Translations under genes and position numbers: made by a program
Part shown: positions 1 through 42,355 of the stretch, in pieces
How the letters are laid out: every line of letters begins with the position of its first letter
How positions within the stretch are numbered: position 1 is the stretch's first letter
The notes under the pieces: model-generated
Seen by the model: the letters and a program-made list of their open reading frames with translations, nothing else
Told to the model about the DNA's origin: nothing
Databases searched by the model: none
Assembly: GCA_963169045.1 (NCBI GenBank)
Contig: CAUJDF010000101.1
Location: 1 to 42,893 of the forward strand
Direction: 5' to 3'
Source: Myxococcota bacterium
GTDB taxonomy: Bacteria; Myxococcota_A; Bradymonadia; UBA7976; UBA1532
DNA: 42,893 nt

Positions 1-102
1 CGGCTTCGTCGCGCCCTGCGGCTCGCTGAGGCTGAACGTCTCGGTGGAGGTCGGCGGTGCGGTGTCCATGCCGGCGAGGAGATCACGGACGCGCCAGAAC
101 AT
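1..102 (-). CDS. 5' end of a divergent gene, truncated by window edge
   Basis: Reading leftwards from an ATG at 102, the frame is open to the window edge for 34 codons and gives a protein beginning MFWRVRDLLAGMDTAPPTST. A stop in the same frame lies at 109-111, so the ORF cannot extend upstream. A TATAAC hexamer (minus strand, 113-108) ends 5 bases before the ATG, which would fit a leaderless transcript. No Shine-Dalgarno sequence is visible. The local sequence around 100-125 is AT-richer than its surroundings, as expected for a divergent promoter region. The product is not recognised; too little of it is present. It could also be a chance ORF. Confidence 0.35.
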   Translation of the reverse strand, partial: MFWRVRDLLAGMDTAPPTSTETFSLSEPQGATKP

Positions 103-337
103 CAATCGTTATACGCAGATATTCTGGCCGATCCTCTCAGACCTCGACCGCGTCGAACACATCGCTGGGATGCGCGGCGTTGCCTTCGCCGCCGATGGTG
201 GCCGCCCGGCCGCCAGCGAGGACGTCGCCGGCGACCCCGTCATGTCGAGGGCCTCGGCGCCGTTGCGAACCCTCGCCACACCCACCCGAACGCCCGCCGC
301 CGTGACTTCCTTGCGCGGGGGGCGCTTCCGGCGGACG

Positions 338-1489
338 ATGCCGGCGATGTCGCGCACATTCGTCGTGGCCTTGTGGGGCGTCGGGGTCGCGCTGGGCACG
401 CCCGTCGCGCTCGACGCGTGGTCCTCGCTGCGGGCGGCGCGGGCGCGGGCGGCGCTGGCCGACGCGCACGTGGAGGCGGCCCGGGCCGCGCTCGAGGGCG
501 GGGCGCCGGCGCGGGCGGTGGTGGGCTACTCGACGGCGCTGGAGCTGGATCCCGCGCGTGCCGAGGCCTTGCTGGGGCGGGCGCGGGCGCAGGCGGTGCT
601 CGTCGCGCGGGCGCCCGACACGCTGACGGCCGACACCGCGGTCGCGCTGCAGCACGAGCTGGCGGTCGCCCGGTCCCTCGGCGCCCCGGCGGCCGACGCG
701 GACCTCGCGCTGGGCGACGCCTGGGCGGCGCGCCGGCTGGGTCAGACCGAAGACGCCGCGCGCGCGTTCACACGCGCCGCCGAGCTGGCGCCGGAGCGCG
801 CCGACGTGCAGATCGCGCTCGCCCGCTTCCTCCTCGAGACGAAGCGCGCGGCCGAGGCCGAGGCGCTGCTCGCGCGCGCCGTCGAGCTCGACGCCCAGTC
901 TGCGGCGGCGTGGCGGGCGCTCGGCGAGACGCGCCTGGCGCTGAAGAAGCCGAGCGTCGCGGCCGACGCGCTGCGCAAGGCGGCCGAGCTCGCGCCGTCG
1001 CCGTCGGCCTGGCGGCTGCTCGGCGAGGCGGAGCTGGCCCACGCCGCCTACGCGGCCGCGGCGACGGCGTTCGGCGCCGCGGTCGAGGCCCTGGAGGGGC
1101 GCGGCGAGCGTCCCGACGCCGGCCTGCTCGAGGACCTGGGGCTGGCGCGCTTCCGCGCGGGCGACGTGCCCGCCGCGCGCACGGCGCTGCAGGCCGCCCT
1201 GCAGGCCCGCCGCGCCCCGGGCACGTTCTACAACCTCGGGCTGGTCGAGCTCGCGGCGGGACGCCCCGCCGAGGCGCTGGCCGCGTTCGACGAGGCGCTG
1301 TCTCTGCGCGCCGACCTGGCCGAGGCGCGGGTGAAACGGGTCGCCGCGCTCGTCGCGCTCGGGCGCCGCGCCGACGCCGAAGCGGCGGTCGCGGCGATGG
1401 CCGCGGACTCAGGCCCGTCCGAAGCCGCGGTCCGGGCGCGCGCCGAGCTGTCGCGCGAAACGATTGTGCGCGTACCGCCACATCAATAA
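338..1489 (+). CDS. membrane-anchored tetratricopeptide repeat (TPR) protein
   Basis: A protein of 383 residues if started at the ATG at 338; an ATG at 347 is equally possible. An open frame continues upstream to 44, but its first 98 codons have no domain character and I regard them as untranslated. Residues about 7-25 form one hydrophobic segment (signal anchor), followed by an alanine-rich helical region. TPR units (A-x-A-L-G-x-A/L-x-x-x-x-x-x-A-x-x-A-Y/F-x-x-A-x-x-L-x-P pattern) run from about residue 45 to 360, for example around ALELDPARAEAL and AAELAPERADVQ. TPRs bind other proteins, so a scaffold role in the envelope is likely but the partner is unknown. The next gene begins 32 bp downstream on the same strand. 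Confidence 0.8.
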   Translation: MPAMSRTFVVALWGVGVALGTPVALDAWSSLRAARARAALADAHVEAARAALEGGAPARAVVGYSTALELDPARAEALLGRARAQAVLVARAPDTLTADTAVALQHELAVARSLGAPAADADLALGDAWAARRLGQTEDAARAFTRAAELAPERADVQIALARFLLETKRAAEAEALLARAVELDAQSAAAWRALGETRLALKKPSVAADALRKAAELAPSPSAWRLLGEAELAHAAYAAAATAFGAAVEALEGRGERPDAGLLEDLGLARFRAGDVPAARTALQAALQARRAPGTFYNLGLVELAAGRPAEALAAFDEALSLRADLAEARVKRVAALVALGRRADAEAAVAAMAADSGPSEAAVRARAELSRETIVRVPPHQ

Positions 1490-1521
1490 ACTCCCGGGTG
1501 GCTGTATCTAGGGGGCGTGAC

Positions 1522-4425
1522 ATGGGGGGTCGGCTGCCTTCGTGGCTGGCGGGGGTCGTCGTCGTCGCTTCGGCGGGCGCGGCGCAAGCACAAGTTCCCG
1601 GGCGTCTGCACCAGGAGGGACTGCTCGTCAACGCGGCCGGCGACCCGATCGCCGGCCCGGTGCGTCTCACGTTCCGGCTCTACGCCGGCGCGGTCGGCGG
1701 CAACGCCGCGTGGACGGAGACCTTCGACGCCGTGCCGCTCGTGGAGGGCTACTACAGCGTCGTCCTCGGCGAGACGAACGCGCTGCAGGCCGACGTCGTC
1801 ACGGCGAACCGCTACCTCGCGCTGTCGATCAACGGCGGCGCGGAGCTCGCGCCGCGCACGCAGCTCGTCTCGGTGCCGTTCGCCCTGGTCGCGGGCGCCG
1901 TGAAGGGCCCGGTGCAGGCGACGACGGTCAGCGTCGGCGGCAACCTGGTGATCAACGCGAACGGGCAGTGGGTGGGCAATCCGAGCGGGCTCGTGGGCCC
2001 CGCCGGGCCGGCCGGTCCCGCCGGCCCCGCCGGTCCCGCGGGCCCCGCCGGCGGCGACGGCAGCCCCGACACCGCCGAGCAGATCCGGGTCAAGCTGCGC
2101 ACCGTCGACGGCGCCGGCAGCCTGATCGACACCGACCTCTTCGACGGGGCCGACTCCAGCACGTTCATGCGGACCAACGGCGACACCGGCACGACCGGCA
2201 AGCTGTCCGTCGGAGGCATCCTGCAGGCCGCCGGCGCCACGTTCACGGGCGCGGTCTCGGCCGCCGACAACCTGGTCTCGGGCGGCGCATTCCGCATCAA
2301 CGACCCCGGCCCCGATGGCTTCCTCTCCTGGAATGGCAGCCAGGCCAGCATCTACGTGGCACCGCTCGACGATGCCAACGCCGATGGCTGGCTCCGGCTG
2401 AAGAACGACGAAGGCATCTCCCTCGAGGCGAGGACGCGCGTCGTGGGCGACGTCGACGTCGTCGGCGGTCAGATCACGCTGGCCGACCGGGGGGTCGTGG
2501 GCGTGGGCGACCCCGGGCTGGCGTTCAACGATCCTGGCCCCGACGCCTCGATCTCGTGGGCGGGCTCCCAGGCGTCCATCTATGTCGCGCCGCTGGACGA
2601 CGCGAACGACGATGGCTGGCTCCGGCTGAAGAACGACCAGGGCGTGAGCCTCGAGAGCAACGTGTACGTGAGCGGGCGGCTCGGCGTGGGCACCACCCAG
2701 CCGGGCAGCGCCGCCGAGATCCGCGACGACAGCGCCGCCAGCACCGGCCTGACGCTCCGCAACCTGCGCGCCGGGGTCAACACCGAGACGTTCGTGCGGT
2801 TCACGTCGCGCACGAGCGCCGGGCGCGAGGCCTACGGGCTCATCCGCAGCGTCGCGGGCGCCGAGGCCGGCGGCGTCAACGGGCAGAACCACGGCGGCCT
2901 CGAGTTCGAGGTGTCGACCGGCAACGGCACGCCGAACGTGGCGATGGTCCTGCAGCACGACGGCGACCTCGGCCTCGGCACCACGACGCCGTTGGGCCCG
3001 CTGCACATCTCCCGGCCGCACCATGTCAACGCGATCATCGAACGCACCGACACGTCCGACCACCTGACGACCGTCGTCGGGAGCGGTGGCAGCGGCTTCC
3101 GCTTCTCGGACACGAACGTGTTCTTCGTGGGGACGCAGCCGTACGGCGACCGCAACGACAACAGCTCCGGCACCGAGCTGCTGCGCATGCTGCCGAACGG
3201 CAACACGGGCCTCGGCACGGCGACCCCGAACAACCGCCTCGAGGTCGTCGGCACCATCCACGGCGCGAAGTCGACGTCGAACCGCAGCCCGACCGGCTGG
3301 GAGCACAACGTGCTCTTCAACGCCCAGGACCGCTATCGCGTCACCCAGAACGGCCCGGCGACGTTCAGCCTCGGCGCTCTGTTCGACGGCCGCATGGGAC
3401 CCGACTATCCCGCCGGCGTGCCGACGGCGCAGAACCCGCAAGTCATCCTGATCGAGAACCTGCCGGGCTATCACACCCAGGCGGGCGCCTGGGTCGGCTG
3501 GACGACGCGCTACTGGCCGGCGCGGCGCTTCAAGATCGAAGGCTTCAATATCTACGGTCAGGCCGGTCAGTGGGAGACGATCGCCGACTACGAGAACACC
3601 GACTACAGCGGCTCCGACTTCACGACGCAGACCGCGCACGCGCTCTACTCGAAGCTGCGCTTCTCGATCTATGCGGGCACGGGCGAAGGCGGCCGCGTGG
3701 GCGTCTCCGAGCTCTTCTTCATCCACCCCGAAGCCACGCGGCCGTACGAAGGCCTGCTGGCGAAGGAAGGCTCGCCCGACTGCGCGTACCCGACGATCGC
3801 CGCGAACGACGACATCGGCGCCGTGCTCTCGGGGTACCTCGGCCGCTACCGTTGCATCTACCTGCAGCTCGCCGCGAACACGACGTACCGGTGGGAGACG
3901 GCCATCTCGGTGCCGGCCCGCACGGATCTATCGATCAACGGCGCGGGCTGGAACAACGGCGCGGCCAACATCACGTCGGTCATCACGATGCGCGGCACCC
4001 AGGTTTACAACTACAACGGCCAGAACTGGCGCTGCCCGTACCGGCTGCTCACCGGCGCGTACTCGACGTTCTCGATGTCCGGCGTGATGATCGACGAGCG
4101 CATCAACAACAACCTGCCGACGTACCCGTCGTCGCCGTGCGTCGCCCTGTTCGGCGTGGGGGAGATGTCGGTGCTCGAGCTGTCGCAGCTCCGCGGCAAC
4201 CTCTCGGAGAACCTCGTGAACTTCTGGGGCCACCAGTACGGGCGGGCCAAGTTCGGCCACACGTTCATGGACCGCGCCCCCGGCTCCCCGCGCAACGTGC
4301 ACATCTCGACCGCCAACAGCGGCTGGAACTTCGCGGGTCACGGCGGCGTCGTGTCGCGCAGCCACACCCATCTCGGCGCCGGCGTCACGTTCGAGGACAC
4401 GGGCCGCATCACCTACCTGGACTGA
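1522..4425 (+). CDS. exported collagen-like / tail-fibre-like surface protein
   Basis: A 967-residue exported protein. The ATG at 1522 is chosen because a signal peptide follows directly (residues 1-23, ending AAQAQ). Residues 24-125 resemble the N-terminal domain of bacterial fibre-type proteins (GRL..EG..VNAAGDPIAGPV..TFRLYAG). Six GPA collagen triplets begin at residue 159. Two diverged copies of an approximately 43-residue module (INDPGPDG..SW.GSQASIYVAPLDDAN.DGWLRLKND) occur at about 258-300 and 335-378. Short LGVGT.P-type motifs, common in phage tail fibres and peptidase-S74 fibre proteins, follow. The C-terminal 200 residues have a pectin-lyase/beta-helix look. There is no recognisable S74 autoprocessing domain at the end. 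It probably forms a trimeric surface fibre. The TSP3 lipoprotein follows after 27 bp. Confidence 0.8.
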   Translation: MGGRLPSWLAGVVVVASAGAAQAQVPGRLHQEGLLVNAAGDPIAGPVRLTFRLYAGAVGGNAAWTETFDAVPLVEGYYSVVLGETNALQADVVTANRYLALSINGGAELAPRTQLVSVPFALVAGAVKGPVQATTVSVGGNLVINANGQWVGNPSGLVGPAGPAGPAGPAGPAGPAGGDGSPDTAEQIRVKLRTVDGAGSLIDTDLFDGADSSTFMRTNGDTGTTGKLSVGGILQAAGATFTGAVSAADNLVSGGAFRINDPGPDGFLSWNGSQASIYVAPLDDANADGWLRLKNDEGISLEARTRVVGDVDVVGGQITLADRGVVGVGDPGLAFNDPGPDASISWAGSQASIYVAPLDDANDDGWLRLKNDQGVSLESNVYVSGRLGVGTTQPGSAAEIRDDSAASTGLTLRNLRAGVNTETFVRFTSRTSAGREAYGLIRSVAGAEAGGVNGQNHGGLEFEVSTGNGTPNVAMVLQHDGDLGLGTTTPLGPLHISRPHHVNAIIERTDTSDHLTTVVGSGGSGFRFSDTNVFFVGTQPYGDRNDNSSGTELLRMLPNGNTGLGTATPNNRLEVVGTIHGAKSTSNRSPTGWEHNVLFNAQDRYRVTQNGPATFSLGALFDGRMGPDYPAGVPTAQNPQVILIENLPGYHTQAGAWVGWTTRYWPARRFKIEGFNIYGQAGQWETIADYENTDYSGSDFTTQTAHALYSKLRFSIYAGTGEGGRVGVSELFFIHPEATRPYEGLLAKEGSPDCAYPTIAANDDIGAVLSGYLGRYRCIYLQLAANTTYRWETAISVPARTDLSINGAGWNNGAANITSVITMRGTQVYNYNGQNWRCPYRLLTGAYSTFSMSGVMIDERINNNLPTYPSSPCVALFGVGEMSVLELSQLRGNLSENLVNFWGHQYGRAKFGHTFMDRAPGSPRNVHISTANSGWNFAGHGGVVSRSHTHLGAGVTFEDTGRITYLD

Positions 4426-34552: not shown

Positions 34553-36982
34553 ATGCGGCGAGGTTTCGGGCGTTGCCGGGCATGGTCCCTGGCGATCGCA
34601 GGCGCGCTGGCGGCTTGCGAGGGCGAGAACGAGGCGGCGCGGTGCGCGAGCGACGACGAGTGCACGCGGGCGGCCGTCTGCCGGGACGGACTCTGTGTGC
34701 CCGTCGGCGAGGACGGCGGCCCGCCGGATGCCAGCGACCGCGCCGACACGGGCGGTGCGCCCGCCGACAGCGGTGCGCCCGCCGACAGCGGCGCGCCGGC
34801 CGACATCGGCGCGCCCGACACCGACGCGGCCGACACCGGCGCGCCCGACGCCGGCGGCTGCGCCGCGCCCGCCCCCGACGCCGCCTGCGGGCGCAACGGT
34901 CGCGGGACGCAGGCCTGGCACTGCGCCGGCGGCGCCTGGGTGGCCGACGGCGACTGCGCCGATCCCGACGAGTGCACCGACGCCGCCAGCGAACAGCGCG
35001 CCTGCGGGCTGAACGGACGCGGCGCGGGCACCACGACGTGCGTCGAGGGGCGCTGGTCCGAGGTGGCCGAGTGCGCCGATCCCGACGAGTGCACCGACGG
35101 CGCCAGCGAGGAGCGCGCCTGCGGGCTCAACGGACGCGGCACGGGCACCGTGACCTGCGTCGCGGGGCGCTGGTCCGAGGTGGCCGAGTGCGCCGATCCC
35201 GACGAGTGCACGGACGGCGCCGAGGCGGAACGCGCCTGCGGGCTCAACGGACGCGGCCTCGGCATCGTCCTGTGCGACGAGGGCCGCTTCGGCGCCCTCG
35301 AGGTCTGTGACGACCCGGACGAGTGCGTCGACGACGCCGAAGAGGAGCGCGCGTGCGGCTTCAACGACCGCGGCCGCGTCCTCCGCGTCTGCGTGATCGG
35401 CGCCTGGCGCGCCGGCGAGTGCGCCGATCCCGACGAGTGCGCGGACGATGCCGTGGACCGGCGCGCCTGCGGCGAGCGGCCGGGCGCCACCGAGCCGGTC
35501 CTCTGCCGCGAGGGCCGCTTCGAGGTGACCGGACCGTGCTTCGACCCCGTCTGCGACGACGTCCCCGAGGCGCTCCCCGGCGACCAGGCGACGCCCGCGC
35601 CGGCGCACGCCTTCGACGCCGGCTCGTGCGGCGGCGCCGGCCGCGAGCAGGCCTTCACCTTCCGCGGCCCCGCCGGCGGCGAGTGGTTCCGGTTCTCCGC
35701 CGCCGGGAGCGCGGTCGACGCGGCGGTCTACGTGCGCGAGGCCTGCGCCGACGCGGACACCGAGCTGGCCTGCGCCGCGGGGACGGCGGCGGCGCCCGCG
35801 TCGGTGCTCCTGCCCGTGGCCGAGGACGAGACGGTGACGGTGTTCGTCGACGCGACGGGCGACGACGGCGCGCTGAACCTGCGCGTCGACGACGCCTGCG
35901 CCGCGGCGCTGCCGATCGCGACGCCCGAGGCGCCCTTCGGCGCGGTCCAGAGCGACCACTACGACCTGGCCGTCGCCGGCGACCGCATCGCGCTCACGTG
36001 GGCCGCGAGCGTCGACCGTGAGGACCGCGTCCTGTTCGGGACGTTCGACCTCGACGGCCGCCCGCTGCTGCCCGCGACGCCGGTCTCCGCGCGCCGGGCG
36101 CGCCTGTCGGCGGTGGTGTGGACCGGCGACGGCTTCGGCGTGTTCTGGGCCGACCAGGACCGCAACGACTCGCTCTACTTCCGGCCGTACGCCGCCGACG
36201 GCACCCCCGGCGACGAAGCCCTGCTGCTGCAGGTGGCGAACGCCAATGACGGCGTCCGCACGCTGAACGCCGCCTGGGACGGCGAGGCGTATGCCATCGT
36301 CTTCACGCGCTTCCTGAGCAACGACGGCTCGCACGTCGAACGCATGCGCGCCGACGGCGCGGGCCGGGTCCTCGACGGGCACTGGTCGATCGCGACGCCG
36401 ATCGACACCAACACCACGCCGCTCGTGTTTCCCGTCGCCGACGGCTTCGTCGCCTTCTATCTGCGCCGCGGCAACGGCTTCACGTATCGGCCCTGGTTCT
36501 ACCGGGAGTCGCGCTTCGGGCACCGCGCGACCACGGTGGTGCAGGCGTTCGACGAGCGCACGCACCTGAGCGCCGTCCCCTGGGGCGACGGCTTCCTGCT
36601 CGCGCACGCCGTCACGCAGGACTTCGTCCACGGCGTGCAGGTGCGGCGCCTCGACGGGAACGGCACGACCGTAGGCGCGCCGCTGACCTTCGACGACCCG
36701 GACCTCGACACCGGATCGCCGCGTCTCGCCGTCGTCGGCGGCCACCCCGGGCTCGTGCGGTCGCTCGTCGACGACGACGGCATCGGACGCCTCGTCTTCG
36801 TGCGCCTGCGCGTGACCGACGCGGGCGTGGAGGCGGTCGGCCCCGAGATCCGGCTGACGGAGCCCGGCCCGCGCTTCGGACCGCAGCTCCACGCCGCCGG
36901 CGACGAGCACCTGCTCACCTGGACGGACCCGCGGCGACAGCCCCGGCTGCGCTTCATCCGCGGCCCCTTGCGCTGCCGCTGA
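34553..36982 (+). CDS. repeat-containing lipoprotein with 39-residue Cys modules
   Basis: An 809-residue lipoprotein (lipobox ALAAC, Cys at about residue 22). An Asp/Ala/Pro low-complexity linker (about 55-100) is followed by five tandem units of about 39 residues, CADPDECTDGxxEERACGLNGRGxGxxxCxxGRWxxxxE. Unit starts are at 34955, 35072, 35189, 35306 and 35420: spacing is 117 bp three times, then 114. Then comes a region like a bacterial pre-peptidase or carbohydrate-binding domain (about 340-445; FRGPAGGEWFRFSAAGSAVDAAVYVRE, with Cys pairs). The C-terminal half looks like a beta-propeller (WTGDGFGVFWADQD, WDGEAYAIVFTRF, WGDGFLLAHA units). CGGGAGAG precedes the ATG. No catalytic residues are evident; a surface-binding role is likely. 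Confidence 0.75.
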   Translation: MRRGFGRCRAWSLAIAGALAACEGENEAARCASDDECTRAAVCRDGLCVPVGEDGGPPDASDRADTGGAPADSGAPADSGAPADIGAPDTDAADTGAPDAGGCAAPAPDAACGRNGRGTQAWHCAGGAWVADGDCADPDECTDAASEQRACGLNGRGAGTTTCVEGRWSEVAECADPDECTDGASEERACGLNGRGTGTVTCVAGRWSEVAECADPDECTDGAEAERACGLNGRGLGIVLCDEGRFGALEVCDDPDECVDDAEEERACGFNDRGRVLRVCVIGAWRAGECADPDECADDAVDRRACGERPGATEPVLCREGRFEVTGPCFDPVCDDVPEALPGDQATPAPAHAFDAGSCGGAGREQAFTFRGPAGGEWFRFSAAGSAVDAAVYVREACADADTELACAAGTAAAPASVLLPVAEDETVTVFVDATGDDGALNLRVDDACAAALPIATPEAPFGAVQSDHYDLAVAGDRIALTWAASVDREDRVLFGTFDLDGRPLLPATPVSARRARLSAVVWTGDGFGVFWADQDRNDSLYFRPYAADGTPGDEALLLQVANANDGVRTLNAAWDGEAYAIVFTRFLSNDGSHVERMRADGAGRVLDGHWSIATPIDTNTTPLVFPVADGFVAFYLRRGNGFTYRPWFYRESRFGHRATTVVQAFDERTHLSAVPWGDGFLLAHAVTQDFVHGVQVRRLDGNGTTVGAPLTFDDPDLDTGSPRLAVVGGHPGLVRSLVDDDGIGRLVFVRLRVTDAGVEAVGPEIRLTEPGPRFGPQLHAAGDEHLLTWTDPRRQPRLRFIRGPLRCR

Positions 36983-36996
36983 CCGCGCCGCGATCG

Positions 36997-37776
36997 CTAC
37001 TCGCCGGCGGACATCGCTGAGGCACAGCGCGCGACGGGCCCGGGACCGGCGGGGTCGTCGACGAGGTAGCATCCCAGGTTCGCCGCCCCGTCACAGACCT
37101 CCTTCGGCGCCCAGCTGCCGTTCGTGCAGACCATGACGCGCGCGCCGGCGGGAGGGGTGTTGCCCGGGGCGACCGCGCCCGTGTACGCGCCGTCGCAGCG
37201 GGTCTCGCCGGCGGTGCAGGGCCCGGTCGGCGCGGGCGCGTCGCCGGCGGCGTACACGCAGACGCTGAAGTCGGCGCCGTCCCAGCACGCGCGATCGGCG
37301 CCGGACCGCCGGCCCTCGCCCCAGCGCGAGTTGACGCCCTCGGCCGTGAGGCCGCGCACCTCGGCCACGCCCGGCTCGACGATGCTCACCGTGATCGGGT
37401 TCGCCCCGTTGATGCTCGGCTGGCCGAGCGGCACGATCGCGAAGCTGCCGTCACCCCCTTCGGGGCGGAACTCGCAGAGACCCTCGTACGTGACCTTGCC
37501 CCCCGACGTGACCTTGCACCGGGCCGCCGGCTTGCCCGCGGGCGCGCCGACCGCCTCCGTCGCGGGCGCGCCGGCCGCCTCCGTCGCGGGCGCCGCCGCG
37601 GTCGCGGGGGCGGCTGCCGTCGCGGGGGCGGCTGCCGTCGCGGGCGCCGCCGCCGTCGCTGGGGCGGCCGCAGTCGCGGGCGCCGCCCCGCGGTCGGACG
37701 ATCCGGCCGGCGCCCCCGAGTTACAGGCCGACACACCCGCACAGAGAGCAAGAGACAACACCCGACCAGCCGACAT
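36997..37776 (-). CDS. lipoprotein with tandem AAPAT repeats
   Basis: A 259-residue lipoprotein. The ATG at 37776 is preferred to the GTG at 37791 because GGGAGG is spaced seven bases from it. The lipobox is GVSAC. The mature N-terminus is a low-complexity arm of about seven PAT(A/E)AA units (15-bp DNA repeat with GCCGCGGTCGCGGG-type core, about 37565-37690). The C-terminal 180 residues have eight Cys: LCEFRPEGGDGSFAIVPLGQPSIN, then DRACWDGADFSVCVYAAGD, then CTAGETRCDGAY, then VMVCTNGSWAPKEVCDGAANLGCYLV. The last segment resembles modules seen in other Polyangia lipoproteins. It is divergent from the L7/L12-like gene. Function unknown. Confidence 0.75.
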   Translation of the reverse strand: MSAGRVLSLALCAGVSACNSGAPAGSSDRGAAPATAAAPATAAAPATAAAPATAAAPATAAAPATEAAGAPATEAVGAPAGKPAARCKVTSGGKVTYEGLCEFRPEGGDGSFAIVPLGQPSINGANPITVSIVEPGVAEVRGLTAEGVNSRWGEGRRSGADRACWDGADFSVCVYAAGDAPAPTGPCTAGETRCDGAYTGAVAPGNTPPAGARVMVCTNGSWAPKEVCDGAANLGCYLVDDPAGPGPVARCASAMSAGE

Positions 37777-37843: not shown

Positions 37844-37911
37844 GGACCTCGCACCGGCAGATTGTCGCCGCCGCCCCCTTCGTGTGAGGCTCCCCGCCCG
37901 AGGAGTCGCCG

Positions 37912-39063
37912 ATGAACACACCGAACAGATTCCGCACCGCCGCGCTGGCCGTCTTCGCGTCGCTGTGCCTGGCGTGGGTGGCGCCCGCGCGCGCCGCCGA
38001 TCCCGCGCCGAAGAAGGCCGCGCCGACCGCCGGGCGCGCCGTCGACGTCGTGCTGACGGCGGTCGACCCGAAGCGCCGCGGCGAGGTCGAGGCCGCGCTG
38101 CTGCGCGCCGGGCTGACCGCGGCGCATGCGAAGGAGGCGGCGGCGAAGCCGCCGGCCGTGGTGAGGCGCGCCGTGACCGTGTTCGAGGCCGCGGCGCTCG
38201 AGAAGAAGCTCACCGCCGCCGGCGCCACGATCGAGGTGCGGGCGGCCACCGCGCCGGGCGAGCCGCGACGCCTGCCCGCGGCGGCGGTCCGCGAGGCGCG
38301 CTATGAGGTGGTGCTCGTCGCCGCCGGCAACGCGAAGATCGAGGTCATCAAGCTCGTCCGCGAGGTGCTCGGCCTGGGCCTGAAGGACGCCAAGGACCTC
38401 GTCGAGAATCCGCCGCAGCCCGTCGGACGGAACCTCGACCTCGCCGGGGCCCAGGCGCTCGAGCGGCGGTTCGTGGCGGCCGGCGCCGCGGTGGAGATGC
38501 GCCAGACGGCCGGCCCGCCGCCGGCGCCCCCCTCCGCGCCACCGGCGCCCCCCTCCGCGCCGCCGGCCGACGCGCGCTTCGACGTGGTGCTCGTCAGGAC
38601 GGGCGACCGGAAGATCGAGGTCATCAGGCAACTGCGCGACCTGCTCGGCCTCGGCCTCCGACAGGCGAAGGACATCGCCGACAACCCGCCGCAGACCTTG
38701 CGCACCGGCGTCGACCTCGAGAGCGCGCAGACGCTCCAGCGACAGCTGACCGAGGTCGGCGCCGTGGTCGAGGTGCGCCGGGACGGCGTCGCGGTCGCGC
38801 CCGAGACCGCGCCGCCGGCCCCGCCGCCGCCGCCGTCGGCGCCGCCCGACGACGGCCACTTCGACGTCTGGCTGATGAGCGCCGGCCCCTACCACATCAA
38901 CGTGGTGAAGGCCATCCGCGAGACCACCGGCCTCGGGCTGACCGAAGCGAAGAACCTCGCCGACGCCGCCCCGACGCTCATCCGCGAGGCGGTGTCCCGC
39001 GATCACGCCGAGAGCATGGCGTCGCGCCTGCGCGATGCGGGCGCCACCGTCGAGATCCGGTAG
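37912..39063 (+). CDS. exported protein of tandem ribosomal L7/L12 C-terminal-like domains
   Basis: A 383-residue protein with a clear signal peptide (ALAVFASLCLAWVAPARAAD). After it come four copies of a domain resembling the C-terminal domain of ribosomal protein L7/L12. Copy 1 (about 42-108) is degenerate. Copy 2 starts at 130 (KIEVIKLVREVLGLGLKDAK, then DLVENPP), copy 3 at about 222 (KIEVIRQLRDLLGLGLRQAK), copy 4 at about 316 (INVVKAIRETTGLGLTEAKN). Each keeps the GLGLxxAKxLxxxxP helix-turn and ends with the AGAxVExR strand. The true L7/L12 N-terminal dimerisation domain is absent. Copies are joined by Pro-Ala linkers (PPAPPSAPPAPPSAPP). It is therefore not ribosomal but an envelope protein re-using the fold. 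A good AGGAG site precedes the ATG. Partner unknown. Confidence 0.85.
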   Translation: MNTPNRFRTAALAVFASLCLAWVAPARAADPAPKKAAPTAGRAVDVVLTAVDPKRRGEVEAALLRAGLTAAHAKEAAAKPPAVVRRAVTVFEAAALEKKLTAAGATIEVRAATAPGEPRRLPAAAVREARYEVVLVAAGNAKIEVIKLVREVLGLGLKDAKDLVENPPQPVGRNLDLAGAQALERRFVAAGAAVEMRQTAGPPPAPPSAPPAPPSAPPADARFDVVLVRTGDRKIEVIRQLRDLLGLGLRQAKDIADNPPQTLRTGVDLESAQTLQRQLTEVGAVVEVRRDGVAVAPETAPPAPPPPPSAPPDDGHFDVWLMSAGPYHINVVKAIRETTGLGLTEAKNLADAAPTLIREAVSRDHAESMASRLRDAGATVEIR

Positions 39064-39621: not shown

Positions 39622-40485
39622 ATGGCGAAGCCCAACTCCATTGGTGGTCTGGATCGCGGACAGTCGGTGTCCTTCGGCAAGCACCTGACCGGCGAAGCGC
39701 GCGAGACGTGTCTGCGAAGCGCCACGGGCAAGATCTACGTGCGGCTGATCGAGGTCGCGCTGGCCCAGGTCGCGGCGGGCTGGGGCGCCCCCAAGGACGA
39801 AGACGGTGCGGCCGCCGCCGAGCGGGCGGTGCTCCACACCGAGCAGGGGCGGGCGCTCAAGGCCGCCCTGAAGGCCGTCAGCGTCGATCCCGGTTTCGAG
39901 CCGCCGGTCCGGGCGGCGGCGGCGCGCGTGGCCGCGGCCGTGGGCGTCGTGCCGGGCGTTCGGGCGCGGACGCAGGACCGCGCCGCGAACGCCGAGGTCG
40001 TGCAGGCCAACCTGCGCGGCCTCGGGCAGGAGCTGGCGTCGCTGCCGCCGACGATCCGCGGCGCGACGTTCGCCGCCGAGCTGGCCGCCTGGTGCAGGCT
40101 CGGCTTCGCCTTCAAGGAGGTCGTGCTCGCCGATGCGCGGCGCAACGAGACGATGAAGGGCGGTCGCGAGGTCGGCATCGCGGTCATGACGCTGAACGGC
40201 CTGTTCTCGCGCTTCCGCGCCTCCCTCGCCGACGAGCTCGCGGCCGACGAGACGCTGCCGCGCGACCTGCAGAAGGAGCTGTTCCGCCTCTACGACTCCT
40301 ACGTCGAGGCGCGCCGCGCGAAGCACACCGCCCGGAACGCGCGCAAGGCCGCCGCCGAGCGGAAGGCGGCCGAGAAGAAGGCCCCGACCGGGCCGCCCGC
40401 CGCCGAGCCGCCCGCCGCGGGGCAGCCCGCCGCCGAGCCGCCCGCCGCCGAGCCGCCCGGCACGCCGGCCCCCGCCGAGACCTGA
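39622..40485 (+). CDS. unrecognised protein with charged helix and Pro-Ala tail
   Basis: A 287-residue cytoplasmic protein (no signal or membrane segment) that I do not recognise. GAGGAGAG before the ATG is a strong ribosome-binding site. Residues 1-225 look globular and mostly helical (HLTGEARETCLRSATGKIYVRLIEVALAQVAAG; RGATFAAELAAWCRLGFAFKEVVLADARRNE). Residues about 225-255 are a basic helix (VEARRAKHTARNARKAAAERKAAEKK). The end is a low-complexity tail of PPAAEPPA/AGQPAAEPP units. A basic region next to a disordered tail could bind nucleic acid, but that is speculation. It stands behind a sigma-54 promoter and the 42-bp array, and is convergent with RtcR, so it is the natural candidate target of that activator. 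Confidence 0.65.
   Translation: MAKPNSIGGLDRGQSVSFGKHLTGEARETCLRSATGKIYVRLIEVALAQVAAGWGAPKDEDGAAAAERAVLHTEQGRALKAALKAVSVDPGFEPPVRAAAARVAAAVGVVPGVRARTQDRAANAEVVQANLRGLGQELASLPPTIRGATFAAELAAWCRLGFAFKEVVLADARRNETMKGGREVGIAVMTLNGLFSRFRASLADELAADETLPRDLQKELFRLYDSYVEARRAKHTARNARKAAAERKAAEKKAPTGPPAAEPPAAGQPAAEPPAAEPPGTPAPAET

Positions 40486-40762: not shown

Positions 40763-42355
<1,593 letters not shown>

Follow-up and report, generated by a model that had tools for sequence, protein, structure and literature searches.

The gene at positions 37912 to 39063 (+) of the window, by which we mean the whole stretch of 42,893 nucleotides of DNA analysed (positions 1 to 42,893 of contig CAUJDF010000101.1, assembly GCA_963169045.1, from a Myxococcota bacterium), encodes a chain of four domains of the kind known from the C-terminus of the ribosomal protein L7/L12. 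On balance, we lean towards a putatively exported, adaptor-like protein that would bind multivalently through these linker-borne C-terminal domains (CTDs), with the first copy in the core role. The draft genome (9.0 Mb, 95% complete) encodes a paralogue, and the four domains are conserved to different degrees between the two proteins. New here are the paralogue of the same design, the position of copy 1 as the most conserved domain and, judging from the residues compared, the loss of the GTPase-binding face in the paralogue. If the protein is exported, a very old translation module, the L7/L12 CTD, would have been moved outside the cytoplasm into a multivalent chain. In addition, the conservation of copy 1 between the two paralogues, alongside the seeming loss of the GTPase face, might provide a direct test of the surface used in a non-ribosomal function.

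The open reading frame of 383 amino acids extends from an ATG at 37912 to a stop codon at 39061-39063 and is preceded by a Shine-Dalgarno-like GAGGAG (37900-37905, +), seen in the sequence 6 nt 5' of the ATG. The L12 CTD is present four times, with three clear occurrences and a diverged one, far beyond chance. In a Pfam hmmscan, the profile PF00542 (Ribosomal_L12) covers four stretches with 234 bits over the whole protein (E 1e-70), the excised copies 1 to 4 alone reach 27.3, 75.0, 72.8 and 81.3 bits, all exceeding the curated threshold (25.9 bits), and a six-frame search of the genome with the same profile recovers the same four places with 26.9, 73.9, 71.8 and 80.0 bits. The three clear and one degenerate copies proposed in an earlier note on this DNA, which had been made from the sequence alone, are thus upheld, and PF00542 is the only Pfam family above its cut-off in the protein. 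All on the plus strand, copy 1 (38044-38238) has no GLGL motif and seems to have lost the factor-binding face, while copy 2 (38305-38499), copy 3 (38578-38775) and copy 4 (38860-39057) have GLGL and keep 5/5, 4/5 (plus K70R) and 3/5 (K65H, I69V) residues of this face, respectively.

The predicted structure agrees with the fold and with the arrangement as beads on flexible linkers that the same note had suggested. AlphaFold2, run on a two-row alignment, gives four folded beads, each beta-alpha-alpha-beta-alpha-beta, with most blocks at pLDDT 72-95, and a pTM of 0.25, which indicates beads without a fixed mutual arrangement. A pLDDT below 50, read as predicted disorder in the linkers, is seen in the leader region (residues 1-41) and to linker 1 (residues 113-127; 38248-38292, +), linker 2 (residues 201-220; 38512-38571, +) and linker 3 (residues 293-312; 38788-38847, +). 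The description of these connections as Pro-Ala linkers fits the sequences of linkers 2 and 3, which are rich in both residues, but less so linker 1, although it is equally predicted to be disordered. In Foldseek searches, the top PDB matches of the full model are L7/L12 structures, including 1ctf with a TMt of 0.96 and an rmsd of 0.7. Copy 1 modelled alone attains a pLDDT of 91 and again finds 1ctf, the E. coli L7/L12 CTD, as its best match (E 7e-5, TM 0.83/0.88).

The protein is not ribosomal L12 itself, since profiles of Pfam and NCBIfam detect no L12 N-terminal dimerisation/L10-binding domain in it and a separate, canonical rplL is located elsewhere in the genome on contig C41 (114.7 bits). 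The equivalog profile for bL12, TIGR00855, spans only positions 50-125 in its best stretch, and its whole-protein score of 219 bits surpasses the equivalog cut-off only by summing the four copies, each of which stays below it.

A Sec signal peptide is predicted for residues 1-28 (37912-37995, +; MNTPNRFRTAALAVFASLCLAWVAPARA^ADP), consisting of a positively charged n-region, a hydrophobic core of 12 residues with a mean hydropathy of 2.4 and a predicted cleavage site of the AxA type, PARA^AD, after residue 28, so that a leader with the n, h and c regions expected for Sec export is recovered by rule, in agreement with the signal peptide proposed in the earlier note. As 4 of the 36 background ORFs of the window also pass this simple hydropathy/AxA rule, the leader by itself is moderate evidence, supportive rather than proof. 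That a corresponding leader is retained in the paralogue is a stronger argument than the leader sequence itself. A lipobox of the form [LVI][ASTVI][GAS]C was not found in the leader, whose sole cysteine lies in ASLC with L at -1, and the mature protein has no cysteine.

The paralogue, a second, unlinked gene of the same genome (contig C28, 182281-183327, -; 349 amino acids), shows a signal-peptide-like leader followed by L12-type domains that agree in number (four) and order with those of the window protein, and aligns with it at 41% identity over 384 columns (BLASTP, E 1e-57). Pfam calls three of its four domains; the fourth was detected by a profile constructed from the copies of this analysis and is less independent for this reason. 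The identity between the two proteins is distributed unequally, with 70% (51/73) in copy 1 versus 35%, 33% and 46% in copies 2, 3 and 4. Similarly, dN amounts to 0.22 in copy 1 versus 0.57-0.82 in copies 2-4, while pS is alike across the four copies (0.32-0.41); because dS is probably saturated, with third positions nearly all G/C, only the contrast between regions is used, and selection is judged on one paralogue pair of one genome. Being better conserved between the two proteins than any other domain, copy 1 can be considered specialised and constrained rather than decaying, and its interpretation as a decaying pseudo-domain is rejected. Recent gene conversion of copy 1 is disfavoured, as its synonymous difference equals that of the other regions. 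The earlier note's reading of copy 1 as mere divergence or loss is not supported and is in effect reversed, given the 70% identity between paralogues versus 33-46% in the other copies. In a tree of the domains, the copies 1 of the two paralogues form a pair (support 0.96), copy 2 of the window protein is sister to its copy 3 (0.98; 52% identity) and the copies 4 of both paralogues group with two domains of another Myxococcota protein, L042 (0.82). From these pairings, the multi-bead design was probably already present in the ancestor of the pair.

Five residues, K65, I69, K70, R73 and K84 in E. coli numbering, which we take to be the translational-GTPase-binding residues of L12, are near-invariant in 30 L12s of the class. 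In copies 2-4 of the window protein, 12/15 of these face residues are retained versus 48/75 of the other invariant positions, so that selective keeping of the GTPase face is not significant (p 0.37). In copies 2-4 of the paralogue, on the other hand, 1/15 is retained versus 35/75 of the other invariant positions (p 0.003), and the face is, on this residue count, selectively lost. The two copies 1 together retain 2/10. With the face seemingly lost in the paralogue and in both copies 1, the function common to both proteins probably does not need it.

These counts bear on whether translational GTPases are the partners. One alternative is an exported stalk mimic, of which copies 2-4 would bind EF-Tu/EF-G outside the cell, where these factors would be moonlighting on surfaces or be derived from lysed or attacked cells. 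It could draw on the retention of most of the five residues in copies 2-4, on the resemblance of the four CTDs to the four CTDs, in two dimers, of the E. coli stalk (PMC10931766) and on a cultured member of the class that preys on other microbes (PMC7188933), yet the face is retained no more than fold positions are, is gone from the paralogue, and predation is not known for the order to which the genome of the window belongs; we consider this alternative very unlikely. Still more improbable appears a single-chain version, in which an exported mimic of the stalk would capture proteins such as translational GTPases or their relatives, either outside the cell or within other cells, and the face-less paralogue would have been retargeted.

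A further alternative is a role inside the cell. Most non-ribosomal L12-CTD proteins of the phylum look cytoplasmic or attached to membrane proteins, and with the face residues kept in copies 2-4, the beads could act inside the cell, for example in recruiting translational GTPases or regulating translation, with the leader being an uncleaved membrane anchor or unused. We regard such a tethered or cytoplasmic protein as unlikely: the AxA site directly follows the hydrophobic core in both paralogues, copy 1 seems to lack the face, the paralogue shows a preferential loss of it, and both proteins are basic, which stalk proteins are not (mature pI 9.1 for the window protein and 10.0 for the paralogue; 5.0 for the L12 of this genome).

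The same pI values, together with a paralogue that keeps the fold and loses the specific face, would suit a lineage-specific structural or charge-based binder, in which the CTD serves only as a stable basic scaffold for an acidic polymer such as LPS, DNA or polysaccharide. Copy 4, with a pI of 6.3, is not basic, and the conservation of copy 1 is more specific than net charge requires, so that this explanation seems rather doubtful to us.

In the adaptor-like reading that we prefer, the Sec leader would direct the protein to the periplasm, the surface or the medium, and the four CTDs on flexible linkers would bind a partner multivalently, comparable to the CTDs on the hinges of the ribosomal stalk; location outside the cytoplasm, binding and multivalency are all inferred. 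Copy 1, specialised and strongly conserved, might perform the core role common to both paralogues. For copies 2-4, which are nearer to ribosomal L12, the differences between the paralogues suggest that partners are distinct or additional.

The neighbourhood gives no functional clue. The window locus and the paralogue locus share no neighbour proteins, which leads to rejection of a conserved operon, and no informative operon is found at the window locus; equally, no Rfam match is found in the window. Save for an AbgT transporter and an RtcR regulator, the neighbours are without a Pfam family, and putative lipoproteins are also nearby. Upstream are located a putative lipoprotein of 809 amino acids with several ADPDECTDGASEERACGLNGRG-type repeat units (34553-36979, +; no Pfam family) and a divergent neighbour, a putative lipoprotein with APATAA repeats (37000-37776, -; no Pfam family). 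Downstream, a 287-amino-acid ORF with a Pro/Ala-rich tail and no Pfam family (39622-40482, +) is followed by the RtcR-type sigma-54 activator, a regulator of RNA repair (40766-42355, -; PF06956, 114 bits).

Bradymonadia have been placed in the Myxococcota (PMC11509652). Within this class, the genome of the window belongs to another family than Bradymonas sediminis. No full-length homologue was detected in 56 other genomes of this class, nor in the 139 other genomes of a sample of the phylum (140 including this genome), so the survey of leader-bearing L12-domain proteins proposed in the earlier note returns, within class and phylum sample, the four-bead design in this genome only. As the survey covered this phylum, rarity is established for sampled Myxococcota only. 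A search of genome contigs with the full protein yielded one L12-like locus only. A phage or plasmid origin was considered and rejected, with only partial, L12-like matches covering at most 52% of the query. A search of open-licence papers found no description of an exported protein with multiple L12 CTDs. Reuse of L12 CTDs is frequent in Myxococcota, in proteins with two or three copies and as terminal domains of membrane proteins or of long proteins. Several genomes of the phylum encode membrane proteins (L044, L051, L055, L099) that begin with a diverged, L12-CTD-like domain without GTPase face. Another Bradymonadia genome encodes RpoC, the RNA polymerase beta' subunit, with an apparent L12-CTD-like insertion at residues about 535-598 (L045, G055:C23, ORF 3-4259, +; PF00542 35.8 bits).

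Among known systems, ClpS, a cytoplasmic adaptor of ClpAP for N-degrons, has a related fold. Foldseek matched ClpS chains at a TM of about 0.7, below the L12 matches for the full model as well as for copy 1, with an identity of just 11-22%, and no ClpS profile in Pfam or NCBIfam matched up to an E of 10, so the likeness is structural only. The notion of a re-used peptide-binding fold put forward earlier agrees with this relation at the level of the fold. Also close are the non-ribosomal modules of other Myxococcota, in which, as here, the CTD is found outside bL12 and sometimes in tandem, with three copies in L042 and two in L041; unlike the window protein, these multi-copy proteins have no evident signal peptide. 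L091 (G240:C452, 2161-2967, -) is lipoprotein-like, with a leader ending in FPGC; it too differs from the window protein, having just one CTD (PF00542, 27.3 bits) and another kind of region downstream of it. Its ORF as shown reaches VVELTDYQ, where an oxidoreductase-like region tentatively seems to begin. In the weak domain tree, copy 1 falls with the L044/L051 type (0.90), and a leader combined with four beads occurs in none of the other Myxococcota L12-CTD modules seen. The CTD of bL12 itself is the common site for translational GTPases (PMC10931766). The window protein is unlike bL12 in its predicted export leader, the missing N-terminal domain, four CTDs on one chain, a basic instead of acidic nature and a copy 1 seemingly without the factor face. 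Common to both are the fold and sequence of the bead (PF00542, TIGR00855), the arrangement of several CTDs on flexible Ala/Pro hinges and, in copies 2-4, the GLGLxxAK motif with most residues of the factor face.
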